Part shown: positions 3,370-40,732 of the stretch, in pieces
How positions within the stretch are numbered: position 1 is the first letter of the stretch
How the letters are laid out: every line of letters starts with the position of its first letter
Assembly: GCA_948567375.1 (NCBI GenBank)
Contig: OX419756.1
Span: 48,374,333-48,438,332, forward strand
Source: Lunularia cruciata
Lineage: Eukaryota > Streptophyta > Marchantiopsida > Lunulariales > Lunulariaceae
Reading direction: 5' to 3'
DNA length: 64,000 nt
The notes under the pieces: generated by a model
Told to the model about the DNA's origin: nothing
Databases searched by the model: none
The model's input: only the letters and a program-made list of their open reading frames with translations
Made by a program: the position numbers and the translations under genes

Positions 3370-3878
3370 TTGCGGTTGCAATTGGTGGTTCGGGTTTGCT
3401 ATTGCGATTACTTTGTCACGACGGAGTTCTTTGGGGATTCCAGAGGAGATAACACTACATTATGCAGTGGGTTTACTCGGAGTGGTGCTCGGTATCAGCT
3501 TGTATCTCAGGTCCTAGTGAGGGAAGAGATTGACTCTGAGTTGGAGTTTGACATAGGAGTTGATTCAGTTGAGAGTGCACTTGGTGTATCCGCACCGTTG
3601 TTGTGGGACATGGACTAGATTTATGGGGCCTCTAAAGGCCCTAAGCGTTACTCTGGTATAGTGGGTACCATTGAGTTGGATGACTTCATCTAGGAGTTTG
3701 GTAGTTGGTGTGATCTGCAATAGATGCGGAACCCGACTTTGTTCACACCCTTCATGGCATGGAAGGGGTTGTTTCAGCATATGGAGGGTCCACCGATGGA
3801 TGACTACCATGAGTTTAATAGAGCTCATTTGGAAGAGATTGAGTTATGGAGAGACTATTGGTCTCCACACTATGTCTC
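3370..3878 (+). pseudogene. gag N-terminal part of the DNMT gypsy element
   Basis: One frame stays readable from about 3370 to 3878 apart from TAG codons at 3616, 3691 and 3721. It gives a hydrophilic, acidic gag-like protein with an ending typical of retroelement gag N-termini (tryptophan-rich, FMAWKGLFQHMEGPP-like). The frame is cut at the insertion point of chromovirus copy A. It resumes after the second GTCTC target copy at 9526 without a shift. All three stops are explained by CAG to TAG. Confidence 0.6.
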
Positions 3879-4307
3879 TGTAAAAGACCAAAACCGAGGA
3901 GAGAAATAGGAGAATGGAAACTCACATTGGGACACTTGAATGAAGGAAAACTCCGAATGCCTAGCATGAGCTTCGGCCTTGGTATTTATAGGTAGCATAC
4001 AAGACCCTTGAAGCTTCTCAAGAAGCTTCCTTGAGCCGCTTTCTTGGAGTGCAAGCCAAGTTAACTAGGAAGCTTCTCAAGAAGCTTCCTTCTAGAAGCC
4101 ACCTACTTGGCGTGTAAGCTAAGCTAGTTAGAAGCTTCTAGAAGCTTCCTTCTAGAAGCTACCTGCTTAGGGCGCAAGTTAACTAGTTGGGAAGCTTCCT
4201 AAGAAGCTTCTTAGATGCTTCTAGAATATTCTAGGCTATTTTGTCTTTTGTTTATTCTCTACTTCGCAAGCCCGATTAACTTCGTCACTAAACTCCATAT
4301 TGTTACA
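3879..4307 (-). repeat. 3' LTR of chromovirus copy A
   Basis: On the plus strand it runs from TGTAAAAGACC to TTGTTACA; in element orientation it starts TGTAACAATATGG and ends TCTTTTACA. It carries the same cluster of GAAGCTTC units as the 5' LTR, including a four-unit heat-shock-type element at 4130-4149. It is flanked on its outer side by the target duplication GTCTC at 3874-3878. The pol frame reads about 24 codons into it before stopping at 4236. Confidence 0.95.
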
Positions 4308-5916
4308 TATTCCCCCGCCGCTAGTTGGTGACGTCCTCGTCGCCAGTGAAGCTTCGAATTCCTGGATGGCCATCTGTGCATTCTGGAGGTGAGAAAGAGG
4401 TTCCCATGTGGCATCATGAAGGGGATACCCTTTCCAAAGGACCTTGTACTCCGTGTGTTGGCGACGGCCTTGTTGAATATGGCGACGCGCAAGGATACGA
4501 TCAACTTCGTACTCCTCATGATCATTGATAGGGATAGGAAGAGGGGGAGGTTGGACTCGAGAGGAAAAGGAAGAAGGGTTAGGAACAAAGGGTTTCAACT
4601 TGGAAACATGAAAGACAGGATGGATACGCATGTGACAAGGTAAGGCAAGACGATAAGCAACAGGAGAGATAATGTGGGTGATATCAAAGGGTCCTATCCA
4701 ATTAGGAGCAAGTTTACAAACTTGGGTATCAAGTGGGAGAGGGAGGTTACTAGAGGATAGCATGACTTTATCACCAACTTCAAAGGTGAGATCACAACGA
4801 TGATGGTCTGCATATTTTTTTTGGCGATTTTGAGCAACAAGGAGGTGAGATTTGGCTTGTTGGAGAGATTGGGATATAGTGGTCAAGAATGTAGAAGTAT
4901 GAGGAACGTGAGAGGGAGGGGGAGCAAGAAGGGAATCTTGAACAAGCGGATCTTGGCCAAAATTGAGAAAGAAGGGAGAAAATCCAATGCTTGCCTGTTT
5001 GGAATTGTTGTAGGCAAATTCTGCAGCTGCAAGACATTCATCCCAGTCGGTATGGTGGACATTGACAAAGGCCCGCAACATATCCTCCAATGTACGATTG
5101 GCGCGTTCGGTTTGTCCATCAGTTTGAGGATGATAGGCCGTGGACAAAGCAAGCTTGGTGCCGAGTATCTGGAAGAGTGCTTGCCAAAACTTCCTGGTAA
5201 ATCGAGGATCACGGTCGGAGATGAGTACCCGTGGCATCCCATGATGCTTGAAGACATTGTTGAAGTAGATTTGCGCTAAGGTTGGAGCATCCACGGTATC
5301 ACAGGTTGGTGCCAAGTGGATTTGCTTACTAAGCTTATCCACAAACACCACAATTGCGGTGTGTCCTTGTTTTGACTTTGGCAAGGATGTGATGAGATCC
5401 AAGCTCACATGCTCCCAACGAGCGGATGGAATGGCGAGTGGTTGAAGGAGTCCACTCGGCTTTTGGTTGCTGGCCTTGTTCCGTTGGCAACTCTCACATG
5501 ATCGGACAAAGTCTCGAACATCTCGTGTCATGTTGGGCCACCACCATTGGCGTTGGAGGGTGCCCAAGGTCTTGTCCACTCCCATGTGACCAGCTATTGG
5601 TAAATCATGGGCTTCTTGAAGGCGCACTAGTCGAAGATCACCTTTGGCTGGAACATAGATCTGGTCTGCATGGAATAAAAGGCCTTCCTTGAAGGAGAAG
5701 GTGTTGTACTCCTTGTCGCATGCTGCCAGACGACCGTGTACCATTTGGAAGAAGGAATCTTGTCGTCGAGCTGATTGAAACTCATTGTGGACCTTAGGGT
5801 CAATGGACACTGTTGTAATTGCCGCCGTGATAAAAGGAAGATCCTTCAAATCAGGTCGTCGTGATAGAGCATCGGGAATGACATGGAACCGACCTGGTTT
5901 GTACAAGTTTGATGTC
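4236..5916 (-). pseudogene. pol: integrase plus chromodomain, copy A
   Basis: The 560-residue open frame begins in the RNase H/integrase linker. It has the HHCC zinc-binding region (HMGVDKTLG onwards, CESCQRNK), then the DDE core with the Asp in the SLDLITSLPK stretch, SDRDPRF, and the Glu in DGQTERANRTLE. The C-terminal chromodomain (EYEVDRILARR, YKVLWKGYP, ATWEPLSHL) has the aromatic residues expected for methyl-lysine binding. Chromodomains direct integration toward methylated-histone chromatin. The frame is intact but separated from RNase H by a 2-base deletion at about 5904, visible against copy B. The stop lies inside the 3' LTR. Confidence 0.9.
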
Positions 5917-6564
5917 AAACAATTGGAGTTGCTCTTCCCATCGATGATGCCGGCTCTTCATGTGCTCCAAGTGTAAGGTCTGCAACAATGGCTTGTGATC
6001 AGTTCGCATGATCACTTGTTTCCCCAAGAGATAATGCCTCCATACCTTGGTGGCATATACCATTGCAAGTTGTTCCTGATCTTGAGCAGAGTAATTTCTT
6101 TCCATTGTATTTAGTCGGTGAGACACAAAGGCAATTGGATGTAGTCCATCTGGAAATTCTTGTTGCAACACAACTCCAATTGCAAAGTTAGAAGCATCCA
6201 AATCAACCACACAAGGTAGTTGAGGATCATATGGTTGAAGAATAGGTCTTGAAGACACCATATGCTTTAACTTCTGGAATGCTTCTTCATGCTTGGTGGT
6301 CCATTGGAAGCTCGAGTTCTTTCCCAAGAGGTCAGTCAATGGTGCAGCCATGTGAGCATAATAGTGGATGAACCGTCGGTAAAAACTGGCCAGTCCATTG
6401 AATGCTCGTACTTCTATAGCATCCTTCGGGGTAGGCCAATCAGTAATGGCCTTGATCTTCTCTTCTTCCATCTTGATCCCCTCTGATGAGATCTTATGAC
6501 CCAAGAAGGTAACCTCCTTCTGCCAAAAAGCACACTTTGACTTCTTGCAGTAAAATTTCCACTG
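5905..6564 (-). pseudogene. pol: RT thumb and RNase H, copy A
   Basis: The frame continues directly from RT after a TGA at 6565-6567. It includes the FLGHKIS and AFNGLASFYRRF thumb motifs and RNase H motifs (VVDLDASNFAIG, MVYATKVWRHYL, IMRTDHKPL). RNase H removes the RNA strand during reverse transcription. A 2-base deletion at about 5904, relative to copy B, ends the reading frame before integrase. Confidence 0.85.
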
Positions 6565-7512
6565 TCATAGTCGTCTTAGGACTTCTCGCACATGATTCAC
6601 ATGTTCTGCCTCTGTCCTGCTATAGATTAAGATATCATCTAAGAACACCACCACGGACCGATCCAATAGTCCCTCCAACACTCGATGCATCTGATCCATG
6701 AAGACTGCTGGAGCATTAGTGAGTCCGAAAGGTAGAACTCTCCACTCAAAATGTCCATACCTTGTACGAAAAGCAGTCTTTTGCACGTCCTCTCCTTCAA
6801 TAGGAATTTGCCAATAGCCGCTACGAAGATCCAGCTTGGAAAAGTAGCGTGCTCCACTTAGTTGATCAAGCAGATCATCAATCCGAGGCAAGGGATATGC
6901 ATTCTTCACGGTTTGCTTATTGAGCCCACGGTAATCAATACAGAAACAAAGTCCTCCATCCTTCTTTGGAACAAATAGTACCGGTGCTCCCCACGAAGAG
7001 GTACTATGTCGTATGAAATCCTTCTCCAACAACTCTGTAAGTGTTGTTCGCAACTCCTCCAACTCCTTTGGTGAGAGCCGATAGATTGGTCTACTCACTA
7101 GAGTACTCCCTGGCAATAACTCGATCTTGAAGGGCATACCTCGATCGGAGGGTAATCCCTTTGGCAGATCATCCGGAAACACATCTGCAAACTCCTGAAC
7201 TATCCGATCAACCATTGCTTGATGCGGCACTTGGCCCTCCTCAGATTGTTCTTGTGCAATCGGCTTGATCCACACCGCGAATATAGACTTATCGTCCTCC
7301 AAAGCTTGCTCTATGGCTGCTTCATTCACAAACTTCCCTTCTAGGGACTCATCTCTCTTCCAAGCTTGCTCCATGGTTGCCTTCCTGGCAAACTTCCCAT
7401 CTTGGGACTCATCTCCCTTCCAGATTTGCTCTATGGCTACCTTCTCGACAAACTTCCCATCTTGGGACTGACTATTCTTAGGTGTCTTACTCAGAGGTGC
7501 CAGACAACCTAA
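6565..7512 (-). pseudogene. pol: reverse transcriptase, copy A
   Basis: It contains the standard Ty3/gypsy RT blocks in order: [68 protein letters not shown] and the catalytic FLDDILIYS. Upstream, at about 7270-7470, are three tandem 20-residue repeats of the type [14 protein letters not shown] in the protease-RT linker. The frame is bounded by two TGA codons, 7513-7515 and 6565-6567. At the first, copy B reads CGA (Arg), so that stop is a CGA to TGA change. Confidence 0.9.
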
Positions 7513-7947
7513 TCAGAAATTCCTACCTTGGTGTTGTACTTGAATTTGGTGTTGGGTCCAATCAAATTGAACCTTATGATATTCAAGCCAAGGTAGACCT
7601 AGAATGATATCATAATGTAGAGGTGCCACTACGAACCTCATACACTCCAAATACTCCTTCCCAATCTTGAAGGTAACAGGATGCAAGGTGCGGAATGCAG
7701 AACCCTTTCTACCATCCACCATCATCAAACTACTTCCAATCACTGGCTTGATAGGAATACCCAATTCCTTTGCCACTTGCATAGACATGCAATTCTCTGA
7801 ACTTCCAGAATCAACCAAAATTCTACAACCCCGATTAGATATCATACCTTGCAAGTGAAGCAAACTTGCATAGGTCGAGCCTTCAATCCCATTGGAACTA
7901 ATCAAGCTCCCAATAGGCGGCTCAAAATCTCCTACTGGGATTCCTCG
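7513..7947 (-). pseudogene. pol: aspartic protease, copy A
   Basis: Retropepsin with the active-site motif VDSGSSENC and the downstream IILGLPWLE motif. It lies in the -1 frame relative to gag, and its frame is open from the slippery heptamer at 7947-7953. No good ATG starts this frame near the gag end. It is therefore expected to be made as a gag-pol fusion by ribosomal frameshifting. It ends at TGA 7513-7515, where copy B keeps Arg. Confidence 0.85.
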
Positions 7948-7953
7948 TTTCCC
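7909..7953 (-). promoter_or_regulatory. -1 programmed ribosomal frameshift signal (gag-pol), copy A
   Basis: On the minus strand the heptamer GGGAAAC (7953-7947) is in the X XXY YYZ phase of the gag frame (codons GGA AAC). It is followed by a 7-base spacer and a stem-loop: arm CCCAGTAGG (7939-7931) pairs with CCTATTGGG (7917-7909), nine pairs with one G-U, with a 13-base loop. A -1 slip moves exactly from the gag frame to the protease frame, and the gag stop (7932-7934) lies within the stem-loop. The same arrangement is in copy B at 41869-41913. Function is inferred from the canonical layout. Confidence 0.8.
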
Positions 7954-8831
7954 GGATCATTCCGCTCCACAACCTCCACTTGGGCAACTTGTCGAGGTCG
8001 TCCATTCTTGAGTGGACATTCAGCAATGCGATGCCCCAACTGGCGACAATAAAAGCAACCTCCATTTTGTCGTAATCTTTCTCTATCTGTTGTGCCAAGT
8101 GGTCTTCGCTGGATAGCATCAATCTCCATTGGTACCGGTTCTTCCACTCGTGGTACGGGTAGGTTTTGTGTAGGTCGAGGTCGAGACCAAGTTGTTGCAA
8201 CTAAGGAATCAAAACGCTCAGCCAATTGCATGGCTTCTTCTACGTTCTGTGGCTCTCGCATGGTCACCTCCAATCTGGTTCGTGACTTCAATCCTCGCAC
8301 AAATCGATCCAGAACTTCACCTTCTTGGATATCTGGAATTTGCATGATGATATTCTGAAATTGTGTGATGTAGCTTCTCACCGAACCAATCTGCCTCAAC
8401 TCCGCCAATTTATCTCGTGCAACTCGGGTGGCATTTATAGTCTGAAATTGACCAAGTATTGCATCCTTGAATTCTGCCCATGTCAAAATTGGTGTAACAA
8501 TTTGTCGTTCAGCTCTTTCTACTCGGAATTGCCACCAAAGTTTTGCCACGCCATCCAACTGGCTAGAAGCCAAGAGAATTTGTTTCCGCTCGTCTTGAAG
8601 ATTGGTGGCTTCAAAGTAACGTTCACAGTCAAACACAAAATTCTCCACTATGCTTGGAACATTCTTGCCTTCAAACACCTTGGGTTTCAGAAATCGAATG
8701 TGATCTTCTCCATCTCGAATTGGCGCTCTGTCTATCTGTTCTCGTCGTTGCTGGTCTCGTTCATCCAACAATCGAGTAAGATGCTCGATTTGTTGTTGCA
8801 TTGCAAGGATAACATCCGGTATTGCGGCCAT
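7932..8831 (-). CDS. gag polyprotein, chromovirus copy A (intact frame)
   Basis: An intact 299-residue gag. It starts MAAIPDVILAMQQQIEHL, with an N-terminal coiled-coil-like stretch, followed by a retrotransposon gag domain (FVFDCERYFEATN, ASSQLDGVAKLWWQFR, WAEFKDAIL, LDRFVRGLKSRTR). Near residue 260 is a zinc knuckle CFYCRQLGHRIAEC (CX2CX4HX4C), which binds RNA in the particle. The ATG is the first in frame downstream of the PBS. This is the least damaged gene of the three chromovirus copies; copy B has three TGA codons where this copy has CGA. Confidence 0.92.
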   Translation of the reverse strand: MAAIPDVILAMQQQIEHLTRLLDERDQQRREQIDRAPIRDGEDHIRFLKPKVFEGKNVPSIVENFVFDCERYFEATNLQDERKQILLASSQLDGVAKLWWQFRVERAERQIVTPILTWAEFKDAILGQFQTINATRVARDKLAELRQIGSVRSYITQFQNIIMQIPDIQEGEVLDRFVRGLKSRTRLEVTMREPQNVEEAMQLAERFDSLVATTWSRPRPTQNLPVPRVEEPVPMEIDAIQRRPLGTTDRERLRQNGGCFYCRQLGHRIAECPLKNGRPRQVAQVEVVERNDPGNEESQ

Positions 8832-9089
8832 TGCTACTACCCTAATCCACTACCCTCAATTTATCTAGTTGATTAACACATAGATACAACACGTCCACCG
8901 TTCTCCATAAGTCACAATTGGAAGTATCAAGGGTTCCTCTTACATGGTGATCATATGTAGAAAATCCTGCCCAAAGCGTGAGGTGATGAACTGTGTGAAA
9001 CGATGCTTTGGTAATATCTGGACATGAAAGTCCCAATGGTTTGGCGGAAGTGGATTTGGTGGTCCATAAATTCCATCCATCCCATTCCT

Positions 9090-9101
9090 GCTCTGATACC
9101 A
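9090..9101 (-). other. Primer-binding site (initiator Met tRNA), copy A
   Basis: On the minus strand TGGTATCAGAGC begins one base after the 5' LTR end. This is the standard plant sequence complementary to the 3' end of initiator methionine tRNA, used to prime minus-strand DNA synthesis. Copy B has the same site with one change. Confidence 0.9.
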
Positions 9102-9102
9102 A

Positions 9103-9525
9103 TGTAAAAGACCAAAACCGAGGAGAGAAATAGGAGAATGGAAACTCACATTGGGACACTTGAATGAAGGAAAACTCCGAATGCCTAGCATGAGCTTCGG
9201 CCTTGGTATTTATAGGTAGCATACAAGACCCTTGAAGCTTCTCAAGAAGCTTCCTTGAGCCGCTTTCTTGGAGTGCAAGCCAAGTTAACTAGGAAGCTTC
9301 TCAAGAAGCTTCCTTCTAGAAGCCACCTACTTGGCGTGCAAGCTAAGCTAGTTAGAAGCTTCTAGAAGCTTCCTTCTAGAAGCTACCTGCTTAGGGCGCA
9401 AGTTAACTAGTTGGGAAGCTTCCTAAGAAGCTTCTTAGATGCTTCTAGAATATTCTAGGCTATTTTGTCTTATTCTCTACTTCGCAAGCCCGATTAACTT
9501 CGTCACTAAACTCCATATTGTTATA
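9103..9525 (-). repeat. 5' LTR of chromovirus copy A
   Basis: Nearly identical to 3879-4307. Its outer end reads TA on the plus strand's right edge instead of CA, a single C to T change. The flanking GTCTC at 9526-9530 matches 3874-3878. It contains the promoter elements described at 9207-9373. Confidence 0.95.
9207..9373 (-). promoter_or_regulatory. LTR promoter: TATA box with tandem heat-shock-type elements
   Basis: On the minus strand TATAAATA (9214-9207) lies downstream of many GAA/TTC units. The segment 9354-9373 reads AGAAG CTTCT AGAAG CTTCC, four contiguous perfect nGAAn/nTTCn units; the usual functional minimum for a heat-shock element is three. Further two- and three-unit clusters lie between it and the TATA box. 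Comparable HSEs make the Arabidopsis copia element ONSEN heat-inducible. Heat response here is an inference. Confidence 0.65.
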
Positions 9526-10044
9526 GTCTCCATCACTTCAGGCTTGGTGGCCAAGAGTAGATTGGCTGTACCTACGAGTTCTAGCTTGAGTAGTGTGGGT
9601 GGAGCTAGTGGAGGTGCACTAGTTGGAGATAGTGCTACTACGAGTAGAGGTACCGCTGTAGGAGGTGGTGTGGTATCGGGGTTTAACCCCATGGTGGAGT
9701 TCTTCCTATGTTTGAGGTAGAACTACTAGGGAGTGCGGACTAACAAGCTGAGGAGCTTGCAGGAGTTCCAACGGAAGGCTGGAGAGAGCCTACATGAGGC
9801 ATACACTTGCATGAGGCGGCTGATCAGTTTCACTCAGGGAGTTATTGAGACCCAAGCAGTCCAATTTTGGTATAGGATACTTGACAGGGAGTTACGACGT
9901 AGAGTTCGTGATGCTACGTTGTTGCAGGCTACTTTGCCCACTTTGGTAGTAGTCTTTGGTTTGGCTAAGCGTATTGACCTCAATATGGTGGAGAAGAGAG
10001 TGGTGACATCTGATTTGGTAGGGAGACCTCATCCACGGTTGTGA
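9526..10044 (+). pseudogene. gag C-terminal part of the DNMT gypsy element
   Basis: Continues the frame of 3370-3878 after the chromovirus insertion. A Ser/Gly-rich linker is followed by a typical gag segment (RSLQEFQRKAGESLHEAY, FWYRILDRELRRRV). TAG codons at 9718 and 9727 interrupt it. A frameshift of about one base near 10010-10020 throws the frame off before the zinc knuckles. Confidence 0.7.
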
Positions 10045-10179
10045 CTTCTTCTAGAGTGCAGCAAAGTGCACCATGCCCAGTTGGTTTTTGAGGATAGGAT
10101 GGACAGCCCAGACCCTATAGAGCGAATGGAGGGCCTAGTGGAGTTAGACTCTTACTCTCATTTTCAGGTCAACAGCAAC

Positions 10180-11166
10180 CAATGAGTGGTGGTGTTGCTT
10201 GTTGGACTTGTGGTGGACCTCACCATCGGAGAGAGTGTACTCAGGGCAGTGGACCTGATACCTCACGTACATCATAGCCAGCATAGAGGTAGTGTGAGCA
10301 TTGCCATAGATTTGGTCACACTAGTGACCGGTGTTTTGACCTACACTCGGAGTTACGGAGTGGTTGGGCTGTTATGGCTGGTAGTAGAGGAGCTCCAGTT
10401 CATGGAGAACGAGGTGGTAGAAGTGGTGGTAGTACCTGCCCTTACTTTTGACACAGCTATGGCTACTCGGATTGAGCAGTTGGAGCAGAGATTGGCTAGT
10501 ATGGCTATTGCTCAGAGGAAATCAGATTCGGGTGCTAAGGCTTCCACCTCATATGTTGGTGATAGAGATGTTTTGGACTTCATGTGCGGAGCAACACAGG
10601 TGGATGCATCTGTAGTAGTGAGTAGGAGTGCAGTACGTGTTCCAAAGCCTAGAGGAGCATCAGTGGAATTGGACCCACAGAGAGGAGAGGTTGGGAGACA
10701 GGTCAGACTTCCCCAGTCTTTCACGCTATCTGAGGCATTGCAGATGACATCCATGGTTCCTAGACATCCTAGTGCAGGTGTGGTTGGTGGTGATGGAGTA
10801 CATGATGGACTACCTGCTAGTTAGCCACCTACTACTACATAGATTGAGTCTAGCATGATGTTGGGGGCGGCTCAACTGATTTTGCGGCATCCTTTGTTTT
10901 CAACCAGTGACATGTTTACATTGGGAGTTGACCCAACCCCAATGTTCCGGTTGGCTGCCACGTTGTGTGAGAGTAGAGATGGTGCAATTCCTACTACTAG
11001 AGCAGAGGTGGTTGGTAGTGGAGCTAACTTGGTTGAGGAGCATGGGATCCGTTCAGCGACCAGTGGTTTATGGCAAGCAGCAGCGGCTAGACTAGAGGAG
11101 TTGCCAGCTAGACCGGCCTTTGAGAGAGCACGGTTCACACCTGGCGTTGTTCTATTGGATAACTAG
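10180..11166 (+). pseudogene. Nucleocapsid zinc knuckles and gag-pol linker of the DNMT gypsy element
   Basis: Two CCHC knuckles lie in one frame: CWTCGGPHHRREC at 10200-10238 and CEHCHRFGHTSDRC at 10293-10334. They are separated by a short stretch with two TAG codons. After a frame change, a coiled-coil-like linker (ATRIEQLEQRLASMAIAQ) and low-complexity sequence run to about 11166. Zinc knuckles bind genomic RNA in the particle. I do not recognise a domain in the linker. Confidence 0.7.
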
Positions 11167-11179
11167 AGGGGGATTTTTT

Positions 11180-11640
11180 GTTTGGTGGGACCTTCAGGGA
11201 AGGTCTATACACCACAGTGAGTCTTGTTAGACTCTGGTGCGCAGCCCCTTATGTTGGGGAAGGCTGCAATTGTCGGTCTGGAGTTACGGAAGACCAATGT
11301 GGAGAGGTGTCCATTTCAGATCCAAACATCTCTAGGTGGTGGTTCGACATAGTACATCATATGTGGAGAGCTTGTTGTCCAGGTTCAGCCTAGTCATCCG
11401 ATTGATAGCTCGGTGGTGAGAGCTCAGGCTATTGCGACAATAGCTGAGTCATATGATGTGCTAGTTGGGGAAGCAATGTTATACCCCATGGGTTTCAGCA
11501 TTGACTACTGGGAGGAGATAGCCTCTTATAGACCTGGTTGGCAATCTGGTGAGGGACGGGTATGTCACCTACCAATACGCTTTAATAGTGGCAATCTTAG
11601 GCTCACTACAGTTCGGGACCATGGCAGCATCAGTTTTAGC
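11180..11640 (+). pseudogene. Aspartic protease of the DNMT gypsy element
   Basis: The active-site motif LLDSGAQPLMLGKA starts at about 11224 (DSG codons 11230-11238). It is followed by the downstream DVLVGEAMLYPMGF stretch, which fits the second conserved hydrophobic-glycine block of retropepsins. The frame holds single-base damage and changes near 11600 into the frame used by the methyltransferase domain. Confidence 0.65.
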
Positions 11641-11929
11641 TTTCAGTGGTGCAGTTACTTGGCCTAGTGACTTGTTGGAGTGGAACGCCCATGCAAAGGA
11701 TACTCCAGTTCCAGAGGAGATCACTAGGCTTTGGAGTACAAGTGGGATTGTTCCATCCACCTTGGATGTTCCATTGTGGAGTTCAGAGGAGGTATTGCAG
11801 CAACATGCAGATCATTTGGTGCAGCAGGCTTGGAGTGGAGCCTTCGTACCATCAGGAGATGAGTGTGAGGATGAGCCTCCAAAGGCGATTGCTTTGACAC
11901 CTCTGGATACCACACTCATTGCTTGCTAG

Positions 11930-12920
11930 TATCTAGTAGAGGAGATATGCCTATTGGAGTTGTTTGGAGGGATCAGCACCGGACTAGCTGCGGTGTTACA
12001 GGCGGGTATACGAGTATAGAGGTACTTGTATGTAGAGAGAGATGAGATTGCTAGGCAAGTCTCTCTACATCATGTGGCACACTTGGCCTATTAGTATCCG
12101 GAGTTATTACCGATGTCAGTAGTCATAGGTTACCAGAAGGCCCTATCAGGAGACATTTCCTTATTGGGGGCGCATGACCTAGAGAGACATGGGCATATTC
12201 ACTTGGTGATTTCTGGATGGCCATGTTAGGAACATACAGGTGTTGGTAGAGGATTGGGTCTTCAAGATCCTTGTTCTGGTGTGTTTTAGGAGATGTTACG
12301 GATACTACGACATCTCTAGGTTCATCAGTCTGTTTCTCCAGCTTACCCTTTGAAGAACATTCCTTTGATGGGTGATTCTTGCACCAGAGTGCTGGCGAGT
12401 ACACATCAGGTCCATTCTTGGATGGGACCTGCTGTATTGTTAGATGCAGCCAGAGTGGGATCACGGACTCATCGTCTTTGTCTTTGGTGGACGAACCTCT
12501 TACTCAGAGAGGTTATATAGCGCGCTTATGATGGGATTCAATGACTTAACCAAATCCTTATTGATGATATCTTGGATGTTGGGCGTCAGTCTCAGACATT
12601 GGTAGTGGCTGATAGGTCACCTATGGCAGTGGTGAACCTAGTTGGACTGCCTAGAGCTGCATTTACCACACTCATGAGTTTCCCAAGCTCTCATGCTTTT
12701 TGAGAGGGAGGACTTGGACTTGTTTGGGACTCATAGTTACAACAGTTGGTGGAGCCCAACGCTGATGAGAGAGAGCGGGCAATGGGTTTTTGCACCGGTA
12801 TTACCGTTGTTCCAATAGTGTCAGAGGCATCTATGCGTTAGGTTTTAGGTCAGGCTATGGACCTGAACTGTTTGACCTAGATTTTGAGCCTTGGCTTGGC
12901 AGAGCAGCGTAGGATGCACT
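11930..12920 (+). pseudogene. C5 cytosine-DNA methyltransferase domain inside the gypsy polyprotein
   Basis: A single reading frame (codon starts congruent to 2 mod 3) shows the C5-methyltransferase motifs in canonical order. Motif I LELFGGISTGLAAVLQAGI (11954-12010) binds SAM. The next block, YLYVERDE, is at 12023-12046. Motif IV VISGWPC has its catalytic Cys codon at 12224-12226, and the following Gln codon is now TAG. Then come a motif VI-like KNIPLMGD (Lys where Glu is expected), motif VIII GSRTHRLCLWWTNLL (about 12458-12502), a motif IX-like ERERAMGF (about 12770-12790), and motif X with LGQAMDLNCL (about 12843-12872). The frame has 11 stops, 9 TAG and 2 TGA, and no indels needed. The order I to X is unlike rearranged DRM enzymes and fits DNMT3-like or other canonical enzymes. 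It lies between protease and RT. Confidence 0.85.
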
Positions 12921-13299
12921 TGATAAGCATCACCCCTCGGACACTTGTGAGCCTTGTGCCTATTGAGACGATTCAGGCACATGCTGGGGCGATGGACCAA
13001 GTGGACATGGTTTTCTTGGGACACATCCAGTAGCTACTAGGGAGAGTGGTCTACTTGGAGTCCATCCAGGTGAGCGTGGGCTACTTGGATTACACCCTTG
13101 GTCCACATGGGATGCAGCTAGAGGACGTGTAGAGCTTGTAGCTAGAGTGGAGGGAGTTTTTCACACAGAGGTTGGGACCTCTAGTGGTTGGGAGCATGAC
13201 ACTATTGCTCCCAAGGGCCTAGTGTAGCAGCTAGTCTGTACATTTTCCACTCCTACGACAGTTACAAAGGACACTTGGGAGCCAAATCTTGGACCCAAG

Positions 13300-14082
13300 C
13301 TTACTGGAGAGGAAAGACAAAGGGTTTGGAGGTTCTTGAGGAGCCACACAAGTTGTTTTACCTTCAGTATGAAGGATTTGGGTACTCTGAAGGGACTTGG
13401 TATATGGATTGAGCTGACTAGCGATACACCAATTTTCTGACGTCCTTATCGATATAGTGAGATGGAGAGGACATTGATTCAGAGCCGGAGTAGTGACCTT
13501 TTTGAGGTTGGTTTGGTGGCAATTTCACATGGAGAGTATGCATTAGCGACAATGATGTCAGCCAAGATGTATGGCAACTATATAGATAGGTGGATGTGTG
13601 GAGATTACCGTCCTATCAACTGACAAACCAAGGCTGATTGGTATGCCATGCCTACACTAGAGGAGATTTTTGATGCAATTGGGCATGCAAAGATCTTTAG
13701 TACTTTGGATCTTCAAGCGGGATATCATTAGTTGCCGATCAAAGAGGAGGATAAGTCCAAGATAGCATTTTGGGCTATTGATCCTCACGGCAAGGATGTG
13801 TTATATCAGTGGAGGTTCTTATTATTTGGGTTAAAGAATGCTCTTGCTGAGTTCTAGAGGGTCATGGATAGGATCCTAGCTGGATTAGATTTTTCTTGGT
13901 GTTATATTGATGACATTTTAGTCTATAGCACTATTATGGAGGAGCATGAGAGACAGTTGTTGGAGGTGTTTGAGAGGTTGAGATCTCATGGACTCAAATT
14001 ACATCCTGGGAAGTGTAGGTTCTTCCACGAGCAAGTTGAGTATTTGGGTCACACTATCTACCCCGGAGGACTTGGTGTTTAA
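13300..14082 (+). pseudogene. Reverse transcriptase of the DNMT gypsy element
   Basis: RT blocks in order: CGDYRPIN, WYAMPTLEEIFDAIG, IFSTLDLQAGYH, WRFLLFGLKNA, and the catalytic YIDDILVYS with YIDD at 13903-13914. TGA codons replace Arg near 13437 and 13621. TAG replaces Gln near 13729 (the usual YHQ position) and 13856 (the usual FQRVMD position). A TAA follows at 14080. Between the methyltransferase and RT, about 12920-13300, is a degraded linker I cannot assign. Confidence 0.8.
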
Positions 14083-14085
14083 CAG

Positions 14086-14715
14086 ACCAAGGTGGATGCT
14101 ATTGCACGTATTCCTTGGCCTATGGATGTGAGCAGAGTGCGAGCATTCCCTGGGTTGGCAAACTTCTATCGCCGCTATGTTAGAGGGTTTAGTGTCATTG
14201 CCAAGGCCTTGACAAAGCTGACCAAGCTTATATATGAGTGGTGTTGGGGAGATGAGCAGGAGAGAGCTTTTGTTGAGCTCAAGGAGAGGTTGACATCTGC
14301 TCCTATTTTGAGGAGACTGATCAGGGGACGACCATTTCAGGTTCATACTAAATGGAGTATGTTGGGGCTTGGAGTGGTGCTCACCCTGCATGATGATGAG
14401 GAGAAGGAGTTTGTGGTGGCCTATGCTAGTCACTCCAACAATTCAGCGGAGGCGAAGTATAGTTCATATGAGAGAGAGTGCTTGGTAGCAGTTTGGGCAG
14501 TAGCACATTTTTTATGTTACCTATTTGGTAACCTCTTCACTCACATCACTGATCATCAGCCGCTAAAGTGGTTGATGGAGTCCGACAAGCTTTCAAGGAA
14601 GCTTGCACGATGGGCTCTGATTTTACAGGAGTATGATTTCATGGGTGTTCACAGACCTAGAGTGGTGAACAGCGATGCAGATGGGTTGAGTAGAAACCCA
14701 TGTCCCAGCCAATAA
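14086..14715 (+). pseudogene. RT connection and RNase H of the DNMT gypsy element
   Basis: The frame is open from 14083 to the TAA at 14713. It contains RAFPGLANFYRRYVRGFS (thumb), then RNase H blocks FQVHTKWSMLGLGVVL, YSSYERECLVAVWAV and HITDHQPLKWL, ending in the typical NSDADGLSRNP linker. The first catalytic Asp position reads HTKWS instead of the usual TDAS-type sequence, so the RNase H active site may already be altered. Confidence 0.8.
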
Positions 14716-14757
14716 GATCAGACCGGAGCACGTTGGCATGGTGAGACAGATGAGGAG

Positions 14758-15936
14758 ATGGTGCCAGGTTGGCATGCATTGGCCTTTCTGTGTATATTTG
14801 CAAAGGCTTTGGTGGTATCTCTCTCAACGCATACAGGAGGAGTTATTGAGGTCATAGATCCAGAGAGTGAAGATATTGGTACAATTCAGGGAGACATTCA
14901 TGATGATGTCTTAGTGATGGACTATCTTTGCATTGGTGTTGTGGGTGGCACAGTTGGGGCCAAGGAGAAAGACCGTGTTCTTCAACGAGCCAAACGGTTC
15001 AGATTGGAGTGTAGACACCTTTTGTGTGTATGGGAGGATGGTAGAGTGCGAGTAGTACCACTTCCATCTCAGAGACCACAGTTGGTCCGTCATGCTCATG
15101 AGGAGCTAGGACATTTTGGAGTAAAGCGTACGTATAGCTTACTCTAGAATCATTATTGGTGGCGCGGTATGCAAACCAAGGTAAAGTAGTTTGTTGCCAG
15201 ATGTGTGGTTTGTGACCAAGTTAGAGCATCATTCAATGCTCCTACGCCACAGTTATACCCATTACCTATCATGGGATTGGGTTACCATTGGAGGTTGGAC
15301 TTTGTTGGACCTTTACCGCTGACTATGAGACATCATCGGTATGTTTTGGTGATGGTAGAGCACTTCTCCAAGTGGATTGAGTTGGTGGCACTTCTTGACA
15401 AGTCTAGTGAAGGGATAGCTTACTCGTTTCTTGATCGAGTTCTTAGTCATTTTGGTGCATCAGCTGAGGTTTTGACTGATCAAGGTACAAAGTTCTTGGG
15501 GGAGTTTTAGGTCTTGTGTGACAAGGCCTTGATTGATCATCGTACTATATCCCGAGATCACCCTGAGGTAGATGGCTTAGCAGAGAGAGTGGTTCAGACG
15601 GGGAAGAGAGGATTGCAAAAGTATGGTTTACAGAGAGGCCACTTGGGAGATTGGGATCTCCAATTACCTTGGTTGGCCATGGGCTATCGGTTCAGCCGGC
15701 AAGCCTCCTTAGCATCCTTCTCTCCATACTTTCTACTCTATGGACAAGATCCAGATTTACCTACAGCCATTCATCAAGATGCTATTGTAGTTTTGGACTT
15801 GGATGACCCCGATGTATGGATGAGCGCATGTTCTCAACGGGCAGAGATCTTTCGGAGAGTGATATTGATGGCCTTTGAGAACTTGGCAATTGCTCAGCAT
15901 AGAGATACTTTACGCTATGCTACCATTCAAGGATGA
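14758..15936 (+). pseudogene. Integrase of the DNMT gypsy element
   Basis: HHCC zinc region (HAHEELGHFGVKRT, CVVCDQ), then the DDE core: RLDFVGPLPL, VLTDQGTKF, and VDGLAERVVQT carrying the Glu. A typical ASFSPYFLLYGQDP block follows. TAG codons at about 15145, 15187 and 15508 and TGA at 15934 interrupt it. Canonical positions imply former CAG and CGA at several of these. No chromodomain follows; instead the frame leads to a PHD finger. Confidence 0.8.
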
Positions 15937-16335
15937 GGTTATAGACCCTCGATCCGTCAATTTCATCCAAGTGACTATGTATATCTACAACAGACAGCAC
16001 CGACGACACTTGATGTTTCTACAGGCCGCACTATCTTGAGAGTGCGTGAGGTTTTGCCATATGGAGTCCTTGTGTTAGAAGGACGTGATGGTGTTTTTTG
16101 GAAGGATCATGTGTGCAATTGTGTGCCATGCCACCTCCCAAACATTGATGGTACTGTGGACCCAAGCTTGGCACTTGTATGTGCAGGCTTGAGGTGTATG
16201 TTATGTGGCTCTTCTGGTGGAGCTGCTACTATGTTAGTGTGTGATAGCTGTTCGAGAGGATGGCATATGGCATGTATGACTCCTCTCTTCACGGTGGTTC
16301 CTCAAGGATAGTGGTTATGTCCTAGATGTACTTGA
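15937..16335 (+). pseudogene. Integrase C-terminus with PHD finger, DNMT gypsy element
   Basis: After an SH3-like integrase tail (HPSDYVYLQQ), a Cys4-His-Cys3 PHD zinc finger spans 16195-16332. It has CMLC, then CDSC, WHMAC with the His, and WLCPRC before the terminal TGA. Spacing and the tryptophan before the last Cys pair fit PHD fingers that read histone H3 tails. A TAG at 16309 precedes WLCPRC. This reader takes the place chromodomains have in chromoviruses, suggesting a targeting role; that is inference. Confidence 0.75.
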
Positions 16336-16596
16336 CCTATAGCTAGTTCATTCTTTATATGGTATAGATTGCAGACAGGCAACTAACGATGGAGCTCCAT
16401 AGCACCCGGCCTCTTGATCTTTGCCCATTAGAGGGTATACCATATACTTAGAGTAGATGGCTATCTGGAGTTAGAGGGACCTAACCGCCAGCTAGGGGGG
16501 CAATTGTGGCACTTTAGAGTCTATGTATGACTTATGTGTGAGTTGTGCTTCTATAGCTATGTATGTTGTGTAGCGATGTATATACGCACGACAGTT

Positions 16597-17044
16597 GTCA
16601 CGCCATTTGTAGTGCCGCATCTAGATGCTCGAACACTAGAGTTCTAGTGATAGTAGTTAGAGTTATTTCAACAGTTTCTCAGAGACTACTTTTTGATAGT
16701 CAGATTTTGTGTTCGGGATACTGACTTCACGGTGAGGCCCACCGTCACTTTGCACCATTTGCACCGTTGAGTGTGCCGTCAGCGGGACCATTAGGGTTTC
16801 AGCGCTAGCTCGAGTCCAGGAGGTATAGTTTTGAAGTGAGCTCTAGAGAGCTCACTTCTCTGATGTTGAGCTTTCAAGTTCCTGGCTATGGTGGATAGAG
16901 GCCGGTGAGCGTCACCTGGATTCTCTATGCTTGAGTGGGTGTGGCTTGACTGTAATCAGTGCCCAGTTGTTGGCAGTTTATAGAGTGACAGATCAAGTAC
17001 TGATCTAAGTTGAGTTGAGTTGAGAGTGGTAAACAATCTGATTA
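16597..17044 (+). repeat. 3' LTR of the DNMT gypsy element
   Basis: About 90% identical to the 5' LTR 2075-2518, starting TGTCACGCC and ending CTGATTA, where the terminal CA is lost. A G-run (CTAGGGGGGC, about 16493-16501), a possible polypurine tract, lies about 95 bases upstream instead of directly adjacent. This leaves open whether the LTR really begins at TGTGGCAC, 16505. Confidence 0.7.
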
Positions 17045-17166
17045 TTGTGGCAATTTAGAGTCTATGTATGACTTATGTGTGAGTTGTGCTTCTATAGTGT
17101 ATGATGTTGACAGCGATGTATGTTGTGTAGCGATGTATGTTGTGTAGCGATGTATATACGCACAAC
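17045..17166 (+). repeat. Duplicate of the pre-LTR segment, after the 3' LTR
   Basis: Sequence starting TGTGGCAATTTAGAG repeats 16505-16593 (TGTGGCACTTTAGAG), so the 3' LTR is sandwiched between two copies. The second copy has an internal expansion of the unit GTATGTTGTGTAGCGAT. One reading is that the LTR begins at 16505 and a second, truncated LTR follows head to tail. Alternatively it is a recombination scar. Confidence 0.6.
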
Positions 17167-18188
17167 ACATATTTGTATCTATTAATATTTTATAGTATCA
17201 TTAACTTGTTATTAAATTATAATGATTTAGTAAAATAATAATTGATATTAGTTGTTGATTGTTCTTTCAGTTGTACTCTATCTTGTAGTAAGAAAATTAA
17301 TGTAAAGGAACCAAGACTGAACGGTTTGCTACAGAGTAGGTGTATGCATTTAGTAGAAGAATTTCTCAAAATAGATCATTTTTCAAAATAAAGTATTTGA
17401 TTTTCATTTTTACATTGACTATAGAAGTTGTCCTTTGAAAAGACCACAATAGCAAACTATCAACAGCAATTTTTTATGCATGTACGAGTGATCAAAGTGA
17501 TAGAAGAGAAAATATAAATAAGGATATAAAATTAGTTCATCAAAGGGATGGTGATATTATTTTTAAGCTTTAAAGGGTCAGAATGCTTTCGTATAATTTG
17601 AATGTTACTTAACTAGATCGGGTTTTGAAAGCAATATGGTTGTGAATGTCGGTGACGTCTAGAGCGTTCCCTCGGTCATTTGGATTTCAAGAAAGATTTG
17701 GAGATTTTTTAATCATTGGAGAATATTTATTTGAAAGTTTTTTTGTAGTTCTATGTTCCAAAAAACTTCATTCAAGAAAACTAAGCGTTTTATAAAGTCC
17801 CTTTCAAATAGCTTCCGTTGCTAAACTAGCACACAATGTTTTGTGTTTAGCAAGAGATTTGGAAAGAAAATTCACAAATCATTTTACATAAGCCAAAGAG
17901 GTAAAGAGCGGAATCCTCTTTTTGTCTAATAAGAATAACATTTTAAGCTTTTGGACTTAGCTAATAGCTTAAAATTGTGCAAAAGGATATGGTCTTTAGC
18001 TTTGATTCTTGACTAGAAACCATATCCTTTACTGGCTTAAAATTGTGTAAAAGGATATGGTGTTTAGTTTTGTTTCTCTAAAATTTTAAGTTTAAGTTAA
18101 GTCCAAAAGCCCCCCTCTCACGAATCTACTTCTCCGAACTATTTGGTGTAACCAGAAACTAGTCATCTATGAAAGGAACTTGGACCCT
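17167..18188. other. AT-rich intergenic spacer
   Basis: No gene seen. An imperfect direct repeat (GCTTAAAATTGTG... at 17967-18004 and 18035-18072) encloses an inverted ACCATATCC at about 18019-18027. It could form a small hairpin, but nothing points to a function. Confidence 0.5.
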
Positions 18189-18674
18189 CATTTTAGTCGG
18201 AGTCGGCGCGGGGAGATGCGGGAGAGTGTGGAGACGGGAGAGGAGAGGGAGAGACATGAGACAATTTTGATAATTTCTGAGTGCTCTCTAGCATGTAGTA
18301 TTTGAGTGAATAGTCAATTCTCTTTGTTTTTCAATTTCGGTTCCATTTGTACCTAGATTGAAGACTATGGAGAATGGAGTAGAAAGTAATGAAGATTTTT
18401 AGTTTTTTTGGGGTTGAGAGTGATCATTATACATTGAGAGTGATGGGTTGGGAATTTTCATTTCTAATCTCTTGGTTTTCATAATTAATTTCAATGGGAA
18501 TTTAATTTGAAAATTTTGGAGATAGAAATTGAAAGTTATGAGAGTTTATAGATTTTAAGGTTTGGAGAGATTGTTTTCTTATGTGAGTTGGGATGTGAGG
18601 GGTTGTGGTTTTGCAGATATGGGGAGATATGGAGAGGAGTATCATGTGTTACTATCACTATTCTTGTGCTAGCC

Positions 18675-19313
18675 ATGGCTACACCTTCCCATGTGGGGTC
18701 GCCTAGAGCGGGTCGGGATACACCATGCCCGGTGTGTCACCGACGCTTTACCTTGCAAGGGGTAAAGACCCATGTGGGAAGGATGCACAAGGACTATGAT
18801 TGGACCTCTTGGGATGCCCACGTGAGACAAGCGACCGCATCGACAGTAGTGACACTTGGGATTATGCACGCTTCTTCTATACCTTTGTTGATCGTTCCAG
18901 GGATACCGATTGAGTCGTGGGAGTGGTTAGCTTCTCAAGCGGGTTGCATTTTGGGGTTATTTGAGACTAGTTTGCCATGTCCACGTCTATTCCATAGGCT
19001 ACCCCGCACACTCCATGATGAGGCTAGACAGGCTTTTTGCCTACCACTGGATCGTTTGTCACGTGATCCCTTGGACGAGTTAGCATGGTTCTTATTCCTT
19101 CCTCGATGGTGTCTTTGTTATGCTAGAGGAGGACGCGCGGGGCATAGAGAGATGGCGGCTAGATTTCGTCGATTCCGAGTGGGGGATTGGGCAGCGCTTC
19201 AGGAGGAGTCTATTAGGGCTACACTATTTAGGAGACAGGCCATCGCCACAGGATACCACAGATTCCACTTGATTACGACGATGTCGGACATTGGGTCAAG
19301 CGGGAGAGTTTAG
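18675..19313 (+). pseudogene. RLE element copy 1: N-terminal C2H2 zinc-finger region
   Basis: I place the start at ATG 18675, in a good plant context (GCCATGG); an in-frame ATG lies upstream at 18588. Residues about 15-36 form a classical finger CPVCHRRFTLQGVKTHVGRMH (CX2CX11HX4H). Single N-terminal fingers of this type bind target DNA in R2-like elements. The rest up to 19313 is a Trp- and Arg-rich linker. A frameshift near 19300 separates it from the RT part, as comparison with copy 2 shows. Confidence 0.7.
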
Positions 19314-19315
19314 TA

Positions 19316-21071
19316 GAGCAGCACGAGCGCTACACCCTTTGTCTATAGCGAGTCCTACTGATGAGACCATCTCTTCCCTACGCTCATTGCATCCTATAGC
19401 AGTAGAGGGACTACCACTAGAGGTCTTAGATTATCAGCCTGAGCAGCTTTAATGTCTTGATATATCACTATTTGCACAAGTATTGTGCATTGCCCCTCGC
19501 CTTTCCTCAGGAGGCTTGTCAAGGATGGTTTATGAGCACCTTAGAGATTGCTTCCAAGCAGATGATCCTTCTAGTGGTTTTACCAAGTTGTTTCAGGTGG
19601 CTGCAGCACTAGCGAGAGGAGACATTCCTATGTCTGTTAGTTGGGTCTTAGGTGCTAGTCGACTTCTCGCAATTGAGAAGGACACGGGATGCATTAGACC
19701 GATTGCTATTGGAGAGATCTTTTTGCATTTGGTCAGTCGTACCATTGTCCTTCAGCATTGTTCTCACTTTTGACAGCACCTTAGTCCACATTAGTTTGGA
19801 GTAGCTACACCTAGAGGATGTGAAGCTATATCTCTAGGCATTAGAGCACTCCTAGATATCCATCCGGAGGGGGTCGTCCTACAGGTGGATGTTGAGAATG
19901 CTTTTAATAGCGTCTCACATGCATCCATCTTTAGAGAGCTTAGGGAGGCTGGTGGATCCTTGGCGAGTCTCATTCTTTTTGTGCGGTCTTTTTATGGCTC
20001 TCTTGCTTCCCTTTACTACCAGCATGGTGGTTCACAAGAGGGAGTCACTGTCTTGGAGTCAATTGTTGGTACACGACATGGAGATCCTTTGGGGGGGCCC
20101 TTATTTGCCATGGCTCACTTTAGAGCTCTCCTATCTACTACTTTGGCCATGCCAGGTTGTGTATTTCCCTCCTTGGCAGATGATACACACATCATAGGCC
20201 TTGTAGATCAGATTAGGCAGGCCTTTGACTACTTGACTACCGAGCTACATCTAGTAGGCTTGAGAGTCAAGGTGTCAAAGTGTAGGGCATGGTCTCCTTT
20301 AGGTATCCCTCCCCACCTTGAGCTTCCAGAGGGGTGTATCACATCCACAGATGGACTTTGTGTTCTTGGAGTGCCAGTAGGATCGTAGGATTTTGTCACA
20401 CGCTTCTTGGATGCTGCCCTTGCAGAGGATGTTCTCCATGTGGATGACCTTCCATTACTAGGAGATCCGTAGGTGGCATTTGGTATACTCTCTTCCAATA
20501 TTGCTCGTCGACCATCCTACCTCATCCGTACAGTTCCCCCCTCACCGGCCTTCCTATCACGTCTGAGAGCATTTGATAGGAGGATTATGGGAGTCTTTGG
20601 TGATATTATTGGACCAGGGACTTTTGAGTGTGTGACAGGGGATTTGGAACGTTTACAGACGGCTCTTCCGATCTCATGTGGTGGAGTTGGCTTGCTTTCT
20701 ATGGAGGAGATGGCACCTATAGCGTTTTTGGGTAGTTGGGCTCTCTTGCACCCCTACTTGCCTCTCGTTTTGTGGTTGATGATAGGCCCGTTTTGGAGAC
20801 TTATGTGACAGAGGTGGAGGGAGGATCCTTTTCTCTCCAGGTGTTATTGCGGCAAACGAGAGATAGTCTATCCCCACGAGCACGAGAGGGTTTTCCATTG
20901 TTTGCTTCACTATCGTCAGATTGGACTAGAGGTTTACAGTCTTCCTTGATGGAGCGAGAGTGTGAGCATACGCTACATTCTCTCTTAGTTGACTCGTCCA
21001 TTCCTCAAGCTACTAGAGCACGTCTACGCTCTTGCTCCGGCAAGGATGCAGGCTCGTGGATCCTAGCTTGA
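19316..21071 (+). pseudogene. RLE element copy 1: reverse transcriptase
   Basis: Non-LTR RT blocks: CIRPIAIGEIFL (block 1-2), QVDVENAFNSVSH (motif A Asp), GTRHGDPLGGPLF (motif B), SLADDTHIIG (motif C with LADD instead of YADD), then LHLVGLRVKVSKC. Stops include TAA at about 19450, TGA at about 19771, TAG at about 19801, 20386 and 20470. A thumb-like region follows to about 21070. Long stretches are readable, so decay is moderate. Confidence 0.75.
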
Positions 21072-21074
21072 CCA

Positions 21075-21646
21075 TGCATTAGGGCTTTCCGACTCGCACC
21101 GGCTACTTTCTCTACAGCGATGAGGTTTTGCCTAGGTTTGGTCCACCCATTTGCATCTTCACTACTCACTTGTGAGTGTGGTTCTACACTAGATGCAGCG
21201 GCGGTCCACATGACACGGTGTCCTTTTGGAGGACAGAGGATAGCTACACATGATGCCATTAGAGACATAGTGTTTGCTATGGCACGAGAGAGTGGATACT
21301 TAGCTTGGAGGGAGTGTTCGTATGCGTTGCAGACGACACGTGTCAGGGCAGACTTATACTTGGTCCGAGATGATCAGGTGACAGTAGCGGATGTCGTGGT
21401 CATGGACCCTACGCGGGATACAGTTCGGAGGGAGTGATTACCCATCCCCCTGGATGGGCGGCGAGTGCAGAAGCAGGTCGCAAGGTCTCCAAGTATACGG
21501 GCATGCAGCAAGGTCACCTCTTTGTTCCTCTAGCCTTGGAGTTATATGGAGCGATGGACACGGCATTTGACACATTTGTCAGGGAGTGCGCGAGAGCTTA
21601 TCATGATAGGCGTCAGGGGTACCACTCTCACTCTCATACTTTGTAG
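21075..21646 (+). pseudogene. RLE element copy 1: CCHC knuckle and restriction-like endonuclease
   Basis: A knuckle CECGSTLDAAAVHMTRC (CXC-X8-H-X3-C) is followed by an endonuclease core: RADLYLVRDD, then VADVVVMDPT. This fits the PD-(D/E)XK layout with the Asp in ADL and the Asp of the DVVV strand. After a one-base frameshift near 21437, KVSKYTGM supplies the Lys/Tyr of the RLE tail (K..KY) and HLFVPLALELYGAMD follows. RLEs nick the target to prime reverse transcription. Assignment rests on these short motifs and on the domain order. Confidence 0.7.
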
Positions 21647-21941
21647 CTTACTTTAGACAGCGTGTGTACATTGCTCTACAGAGGGCAGTGGTTAGAGGGC
21701 AGTGGCTGGTGTAATCCATAGGAGAGCAATCACATTAGGTAATGTTTCTTCGGATGCTCCAGTGATGTGTAGACCGTACGACTTGCATAGCTCGGATATC
21801 TTAGGTGCGGTAGGGCAGATTTCTCATACAGACTCTATTGGGGCTTAGCCCCATGTTACCTTTTTTGTCTCTCCCTTGTACGGCTTGATGGGGTCTTCCC
21901 ATCCTTCATTTTTCCTAAGCGGTCGCCTTTTTCCATTTTAG

Positions 21942-40719: not shown

Positions 40720-40720
40720 T

Positions 40721-40732
40721 TAGTATCAGAGC
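40721..40732 (+). other. Primer-binding site (initiator Met tRNA), copy B
   Basis: TAGTATCAGAGC directly after the LTR; it is the TGGTATCAGAGC site of copy A with one G to A change. Confidence 0.85.

Follow-up and report, generated by a model that had tools for sequence, protein, structure and literature searches.

Chromoviruses follow the order protease-reverse transcriptase-RNase H-integrase (PR-RT-RH-IN), and their integrase ends in a domain that reads chromatin; PAT-like elements carry split direct repeats in the plan A-body-B-A-B. A mobile element that carries an enzyme used for silencing mobile elements presents a paradox, which the open-access literature reports from two algal groups. 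To our knowledge, KnitGypsy-Dnmt3 is the one gypsy-borne enzyme of this kind to have been tested. It was described from Klebsormidium nitens by de Mendoza et al. (2018, PMC5890265) as an unrearranged Dnmt3 domain in a Gypsy polyprotein, and the legend to their Figure 4 calls the repeat structure of the K. nitens elements DIRS-like. The enzyme gave no methylation in yeast, a result that its authors call inconclusive. The text of the same paper names DIRS and LINE elements as the dinoflagellate carriers; it proposes that the DIRS elements of Symbiodinium, which encode a DNMT able to methylate CG in yeast, self-methylate their cDNA, discusses genome-wide effects in Symbiodinium, and proposes RNA methylation for the LINE enzyme. 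A 2025 paper citing de Mendoza et al. (PMC12344493) places DNMT3s in retrotransposons of streptophytes and dinoflagellates and speaks of Copia and DIRS. An initial annotation of the locus treated here had credited de Mendoza et al. with copia carriers in dinoflagellates, wording that agrees with the 2025 paper and departs from the text of PMC5890265. The accessible text of PMC6453930 and PMC9516144 makes no mention of DNMT3s in retrotransposons.

The window analyzed here, a stretch of 64,000 nucleotides from the bryophyte Lunularia cruciata, contains a Ty3/gypsy-like element of about 15 kb (2075-17167) with the order A1, gag, protease, MTase, UAG, RT, RNase H, integrase, PHD finger, polypurine tract, B1, A2, B2, all on the + strand. 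A1/A2 and B1/B2 are split direct repeats, and the plan is A-body-B-A-B. The initial annotation had placed a C5-methyltransferase at 11930-12920; that interval does hold the MTase but covers only a part of the interrupted 15-kb element to which the domain belongs, and its picture of the element can now be extended by the split direct repeats, the PHD finger, and a nested insertion. The 5′ leader and the start of gag (2517-3878) align with the corresponding 5′ region of other copies; two blocks that lie 7 bases apart in the window are separated by several hundred further bases in most of them. Gag is then interrupted by a younger chromovirus on the − strand (3879-9523), recognized by its terminal repeats and Pfam matches and foreign to the element. 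Its terminal repeats (3879-4305 and 9103-9523) are 98.4% identical; RVT_1, Integrase_H2C2, and Chromo score above the Pfam cut-off and rve below it. The remainder of gag (9524-11199) has zinc-knuckle-like stretches near 10190-10350, found by eye in the translation (CWTCGGPHHRREC and CEHCHRFGHTSDRC), and gave no Pfam match over 10186-10824. An aspartic protease (11200-11570) is read from the translation, with DSGAQPLMLG from 11230; it has no Pfam match, but the search read the MTase frame there, and the protease and RT of this copy lie in a frame different from that of the MTase. The protease stretch of a relative, L002, matches Asp_protease_2 with an E-value of 8e-4, below the cut-off. Downstream of the MTase lie the reverse transcriptase (13600-14058; PF00078, E 2e-28), RNase H (14329-14634; PF17917, E 8e-29), an integrase with H2C2 zinc domain and rve core (15064-15564; PF17921, E 5e-18, and PF00665, E 1e-10), and, in the position that the chromodomain takes in chromoviruses, a C-terminal PHD finger (16195-16329; PF00628, E 3e-9). 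As for the surroundings, the chromovirus occurs three times in the window, at 3879-9523 (−), 40310-45966 (+), and 46191-51235; the first two copies are 94% identical, and the integrase and chromodomain were found in the first, the one nested in gag of the MTase element. Another element, at 18222-21950, 34410-37785, and 55988-61875, has copies that are 80-84% identical, with a weak C2H2-finger-like start and a reverse transcriptase, and resembles a non-LTR element.

The decayed DNMT3-type C5-methyltransferase domain occupies 11921-12964 (+) in a single frame with 12 stops (10 TAG, 2 TGA). Taken alone, it reaches 13.7 bits (E 0.042) against Pfam DNA_methylase, where the cut-off is 22, and finds DNMT3A in the PDB with an E-value of 9e-6, so that support from this single sequence is modest. 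A search of 5.8 billion proteins returned 157 relatives at E<=1e-3, of which 120 are listed; among the matches listed, the best has an E-value of 1e-137 at 67% identity, and the named sources are Calypogeia fissa, Marchantia polymorpha, M. paleacea, Riccia sorocarpa, and Sphagnum species, with one record filed under a bacterial genome bin. A profile built from the window domain and 28 of these relatives (29 sequences) matched DNMT3A at 2e-20 and DNMT3B at 3e-18, and HaeIII at 1e-5. Matches of the same profile to 4onj (2e-9) and DRM2 (1.5e-7) cover the N-terminal part only, and no PDB chain named DNMT1 or CMT appeared at 0.01. The label of 4onj reads just "DNA methyltransferase"; we take it to be tobacco DRM. 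The 157 homologues and the profile make the identity of the domain certain. In the family alignment, motifs I (LFGG), IV (GWPC), VI, VIII, and X follow one another in canonical order rather than in the rearranged order of DRM enzymes, as had been claimed from the window. By its profile matches and motif order, the MTase is classed as DNMT3-like and not DRM-like, again in line with the initial annotation, and a DRM origin was rejected on the far stronger match of the profile to DNMT3A. Of the 29 aligned sequences, which come from distant sources, most of those that reach the catalytic PC, ENV, and HRPR-type motifs retain them. The window copy has altered motifs VI and VIII and is therefore dead; its decay also includes the stops and frame shifts between protease, MTase, and RT. 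A structure model from this analysis has a pLDDT of 75 and a pTM of 0.81, and a search of IMG/VR was blank except for one weak match.

Whether the domain belongs to the element or landed in this copy alone was assessed in the genome (566 Mb, 74 contigs). The MTase query returned 13643 candidates, of which 116 were scored: the window and 115 further copies, 85-89% identical to the query. By a hand count from the table, 54 of the 116 have no stop in the MTase. Left-end junctions between A and the body number 2379 with up to 2 mismatches (control 0), A-to-B junctions 2954, and B^A junctions 1630, the last an undercount because the pattern is CpG-rich. To avoid choice by MTase, the first 20 left-end sites in list order were taken and the place expected for the MTase was examined; this list-order sample leans to better-preserved copies, since all lie on contig C1 and have 0 pattern mismatches. 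The MTase segment stands at the expected distance in 17 of the 20, a count that includes L061, which fell outside the script filter but is visible in its alignment row. At L066 the place holds pol sequence from about 2.2 kb further on, with about that much missing before it, and the other two left ends show no element sequence there. The list-order copies are mostly decayed: one of 16 scanned has a stop-free stretch, and gapped rows inflate the other stop counts. A host gene fragment peculiar to this copy, or a chance match, could draw on the subthreshold Pfam score of the window domain, yet it is refuted by the 17 of 20 left ends, the 157 homologues, and the PR-MTase and MTase-RT combinations that occur as single proteins in other species, and we give it a negligible probability. 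The case that the initial annotation had named as overturning it, a segment private to this copy and lacking from its sisters, thus does not hold, and its claim that the domain belongs to the element holds. A1 (2075-2516), which starts TGTCACG and has no B repeat before it, is 90% identical to A2 over 449 columns; the two differ at 36 of 442 aligned bases, and 34 of these changes are transitions. This 8.1% compares with a range of about 0.4-3.7% among 14 copies, each value the sum of two slightly overlapping pieces, and it follows that the family jumped recently and that the window copy is old. The window thus holds a dead member of a high-copy, recently active family of Ty3/gypsy-like retrotransposons.

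Between the MTase and RT of this copy, alignment with other copies and L002 reveals a TAG (13225-13227) followed by CAGCTA. In a sample of 20 copies chosen by MTase similarity, 19 have an in-frame TAG at this place, always followed by CARYYA (CAG-CCA, CAG-CTA, or CAG-TCA), and the 20th is rearranged at the site. L002, a contig of 9285 bases misfiled in a cyanobacterial genome bin, has an MTase that is 46% identical and two long open ORFs in the order Gag-PR-MTase, TAG, RT-RH-IN-PHD, which join in frame at TAG-CAA-TCA, likewise CARYYA. In tobamoviruses and other plant viruses, UAG-CARYYA is described as the context of type I readthrough (text of PMC5382211). Because this context is found in 19 of 20 copies and in L002, the MTase most likely forms the end of a Gag-PR-MTase protein, with the polymerase part reached by readthrough. 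The initial annotation rightly set the MTase between protease and RT; its placement simply inside pol does not stand, since the UAG separates MTase from RT in this genome.

Relatives of the polyprotein were collected as 168 proteins (P0121-P0288; all 48 of one search and the 120 listed of 952 in another), with domains called by profiles built from the set itself. Thirty are PR-MTase without RT and 47 are RT-RH-IN-PHD without MTase, some of which may be cut by contig ends; 35 follow a second architecture, RT-RH-MTase-IN-PHD, and 43 are others, mostly shorter pieces. The stop is absent from 11 MTase-RT-RH-IN and two PR-MTase-RT-RH-IN proteins (with or without PHD), each a single protein, the latter two being P0212 and P0222 (named K. 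nitens). Some of these fusions may be model errors, because P0222 is a gene model and the Marchantia gene models P0145, P0146, and P0150 join MTase to RT by omitting the stretch around the stop. Among named sources, an MTase precedes RT in K. nitens (P0222) and in Closterium NIES-54 (P0249 and P0274), so that the proposed link to charophyte gypsy elements is borne out within this family. Carriers of the second architecture include Tetrabaena socialis P0271, whose MTase match is partial, and proteins from metagenomes, P0158 (196 members) among them; the PHD finger is present in both architectures. An apparent protease beside the MTase in the second architecture was retracted, as the DSGAQP-like match in P0158 is unsupported by the protease profile. 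Members of the lineage without the enzyme may also exist, given that metagenome protein P0231 (PR-RT-RH-IN-PHD) and Haematococcus lacustris P0250 (RT-RH-IN-PHD) show no MTase match. The second architecture forms a supported clade in the MTase tree (100/99, 7 rows). That tree was built without host DNMT3 outgroups, has P0133 on a very long branch that we took as mis-cut, lost P0033, and was used for this clade only. Its sequences are compatible both with a single capture followed by relocation and with two captures.

The right end of the window element begins with a polypurine tract, AGGGGGG (16494-16500), read from the sequence; it lies immediately 5′ of B1 and adjoins B1 in other copies, and L002 has AGGGGGGG in the equivalent place. 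B1, the internal copy of the right terminal repeat (16503-16593), matches B2 in two pieces of 91% and 97% identity; A2, the internal copy of the left repeat, identified by comparison with A1, spans 16596-17044; and B2, the right terminal repeat by the same kind of comparison, spans 17044-17167 and ends ...ACAACA. Among the 20 MTase-selected copies, 13 right ends read B-A-B, including L011, where A2 extends about 90 bases into the body, and L028, where further A follows; two have A2 and inverted element-like sequence, two B alone, and three are truncated, rearranged, or nested. The inverted sequence, joined to A2 in place of B2 at L014 and L022, includes an RT piece 99% and a gag piece 80% identical to copy L026. 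In the list-order sample, 13 of 17 right ends are B-A-B. The element termini are TG...CA and the internal junction is CA-gc-TG (gt in the window), which L002 shares (ACGACAGCTGTCACG). Perfect 4-bp target duplications flank nine of the 14 MTase-selected copies with both flanks (13 fetched and the window), compared with 1 of 182 crossed pairs, and lengths of 3, 5, 6, 7, or 8 bp match in at most one of the 14; the window copy agrees at three of four bases and is not among the nine. For the list-order sample, 17 copies with the MTase in place were examined; two showed no A or B where expected, and the remaining 15 (13 B-A-B, one single unit, and one with an extra piece) all have a perfect 4-bp duplication, compared with 0 of 210 crossed pairs. 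In total, 24 of 29 copies scored have one, and the DNA between the duplications starts at A (TG...) and stops at B (...CA). Ten A-to-B sites picked for their seeming lack of a nearby left end yielded one solo A-B unit with a duplication and nine with B before A, like ordinary right ends; seven of these nine were called by eye, as the script label needs an unmutated junction. L085 departs from these forms: its right end reads A-B, then sequence from upstream of the polypurine tract, then B. The copy is flanked by a perfect 4-bp duplication, and its structure may bear on the origin of the A-to-B junction.

Since the split repeats lie between these 4-bp duplications, the element is most likely inserted by its integrase and not by a tyrosine recombinase, despite repeats like those of DIRS and PAT elements. 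The A-body-B-A-B plan of PAT-like elements would fit insertion by a tyrosine recombinase as in DIRS/PAT elements, and the K. nitens repeats are described as those of DIRS (PMC5890265), but the 24 of 29 duplications, the TG...CA ends, and the Pfam matches of the L002 ORFs, which include an integrase core and no recombinase, leave this reading very improbable, and it was rejected on the duplications in both samples. The polypurine tract before B and the start of the body after A suggest that the LTR used for reverse transcription has the form B-A; no tRNA primer site was identified. A circle opened at one B^A would then yield the observed A-body-B-A-B form. The reciprocal form, A-B-A-body-B, was not seen: there is no direct B before A1 in 19 left flanks inspected by eye or in 15 short flanks, which weakens random opening of a two-LTR circle. 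The left flank of L012 lies in an inverted B-like stretch. L002 seems to hold one A-body-B unit; its bases 1-127 and 9159-9285 are identical, as in a circle closed by an assembler, with no other repeat in the contig. These matching ends could be a consequence of the repeat plan or of a genuinely circular DNA.

Decay of the window MTase was compared with the 20 copies. The median C>T/G>A changes per site are 0.167 at CG, 0.173 at CHG, and 0.038 at CHH, and C>T at CG and CHG thus runs at about 4.5 times the CHH rate (MTase stretch only). Such decay fits host methylation of the inserted copy at CG and CHG, as expected, and has no bearing on the element's own enzyme. A crude dN/dS estimate from the MTase-selected copies (20, with 18 for RT-RH and 17 for IN; rearranged ones dropped) gave, for MTase, RT-RH, gag-PR, and IN in turn, 0.47, 0.39, 0.61, and 0.71 with variants common to two or more copies and 0.80, 0.83, 1.21, and 1.00 with singletons. 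These values are a weak sign of selection on the MTase.

Taking these results together, we lean toward a reading in which the window holds a dead copy of a Gag-PR-MTase/UAG/RT-RH-IN-PHD family whose MTase, dosed by readthrough and packaged, methylates the element's own cDNA before integration. Ribosomes would mostly stop at the UAG and release Gag-PR-MTase, and some would read through into the polymerase part. Because it would be made at the Gag level as Gag-PR-MTase, the MTase would be packaged in the particle, where it could methylate element cDNA de novo, and the new copy would arrive in chromatin with its mark in place. The integrase may be guided to a histone state by its PHD finger, and the 4-bp duplication would be the product of a DDE integrase. 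Host CG and CHG methylation would then silence inserted copies and drive the C>T decay that is observed. Several observations count against this reading: KnitGypsy-Dnmt3 gave no methylation in yeast, selection on the MTase shows weakly, some relatives run without the stop, and most list-order copies are broken. Action of the MTase in trans on the host genome, for instance on host silencing genes or rival elements, would accord with the canonical catalytic motifs retained by the relatives, with the thousands of copies, and with the genome-wide effects discussed for Symbiodinium (PMC5890265). We consider it unlikely, however, as either arrangement, with the MTase joined to Gag-PR or set between RNase H and integrase, places it inside the particle polyprotein. 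A domain that has lost DNA methylation and is kept for another role in the particle, for instance to bind RNA or to act like an RNA methylase, could explain why KnitGypsy-Dnmt3 gave no methylation in yeast, and de Mendoza et al. suggested RNA methylation for the LINE enzyme (PMC5890265); with catalytic PC, ENV, and HRPR-type motifs kept as widely as they are in the family alignment, this role is quite improbable.

Self-methylation of cDNA, the reading that we favor, also enters a bolder one, which we hold only tentatively and put forward as a possibility. Here, the elements would form an old, separate lineage of retrotransposons in green plants (chlorophytes, charophytes, and bryophytes) that keeps its own DNMT3 in two polyprotein positions and has an LTR of the form B-A, with the polypurine tract before B and the primer site after A. 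The integrase would act at the internal B^A junction (ACA-gc-TGT) and not at the LTR ends, and the inserted DNA would be a permuted A-body-B-A-B form, self-methylated before it enters the chromosome. If true, reverse-transcribed DNA would have a third route of insertion, one that combines DIRS repeats with LTR-element chemistry. A major, recently active family in a bryophyte, whose named relatives include Marchantia, Sphagnum, and Closterium, allows the question of whether and why it methylates itself to be tested in genetically tractable land plants, and the UAG signal predicts a dose, with methyltransferase at the Gag level. Split repeats flanked by integrase-type duplications also mean that a tyrosine recombinase cannot be assumed from DIRS-like repeats, a point that matters for the classification of such elements.

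In the open-access literature, KnitGypsy is named in PMC5890265 only, and we found no report there of an MTase-gypsy family in liverworts and Sphagnum, with the high copy number and young copies of the present genome, of an MTase that ends a Gag-protease ORF before an in-frame UAG-CARYYA, of DIRS-like split repeats between perfect 4-bp duplications in such elements, or of the second order, RT-RNaseH-MTase-integrase-PHD, from metagenomes and Tetrabaena. Compared with known systems, the window family shares the name-giving features of a DNMT3-bearing Gypsy, a Dnmt3 domain in a gypsy polyprotein with gypsy-type domains and DIRS-like split repeats, with KnitGypsy-Dnmt3 as described in the text of PMC5890265. 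It differs in its bryophyte host, its thousands of copies, the in-frame UAG-CARYYA after the MTase, and the 4-bp duplications, and it has a PHD finger, a term absent from the main text of that paper. The K. nitens protein P0222, which may be KnitGypsy-Dnmt3 itself, has the same order as the window family (PR-MTase-RT-RH-IN) and, unlike it, no stop after the MTase, but it is a gene model. SymbioDIRS-Dnmt3 of Symbiodinium also places a Dnmt3 in a retrotransposon polyprotein, but it is DIRS by name, its enzyme works in yeast, and the text of PMC5890265 sees no relationship with the Gypsy case. Chromoviruses differ from the window family, in which a PHD finger replaces the chromodomain at the integrase C terminus (in the window and in L002 alike) and an MTase and split repeats are added. 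DIRS/PAT elements have similar repeats, but in place of their tyrosine recombinase and lack of target duplication, the window family has an integrase, 4-bp duplications, and no recombinase match. The kind of element is therefore already known from KnitGypsy-Dnmt3, and the family described here is a new and richer form of it.
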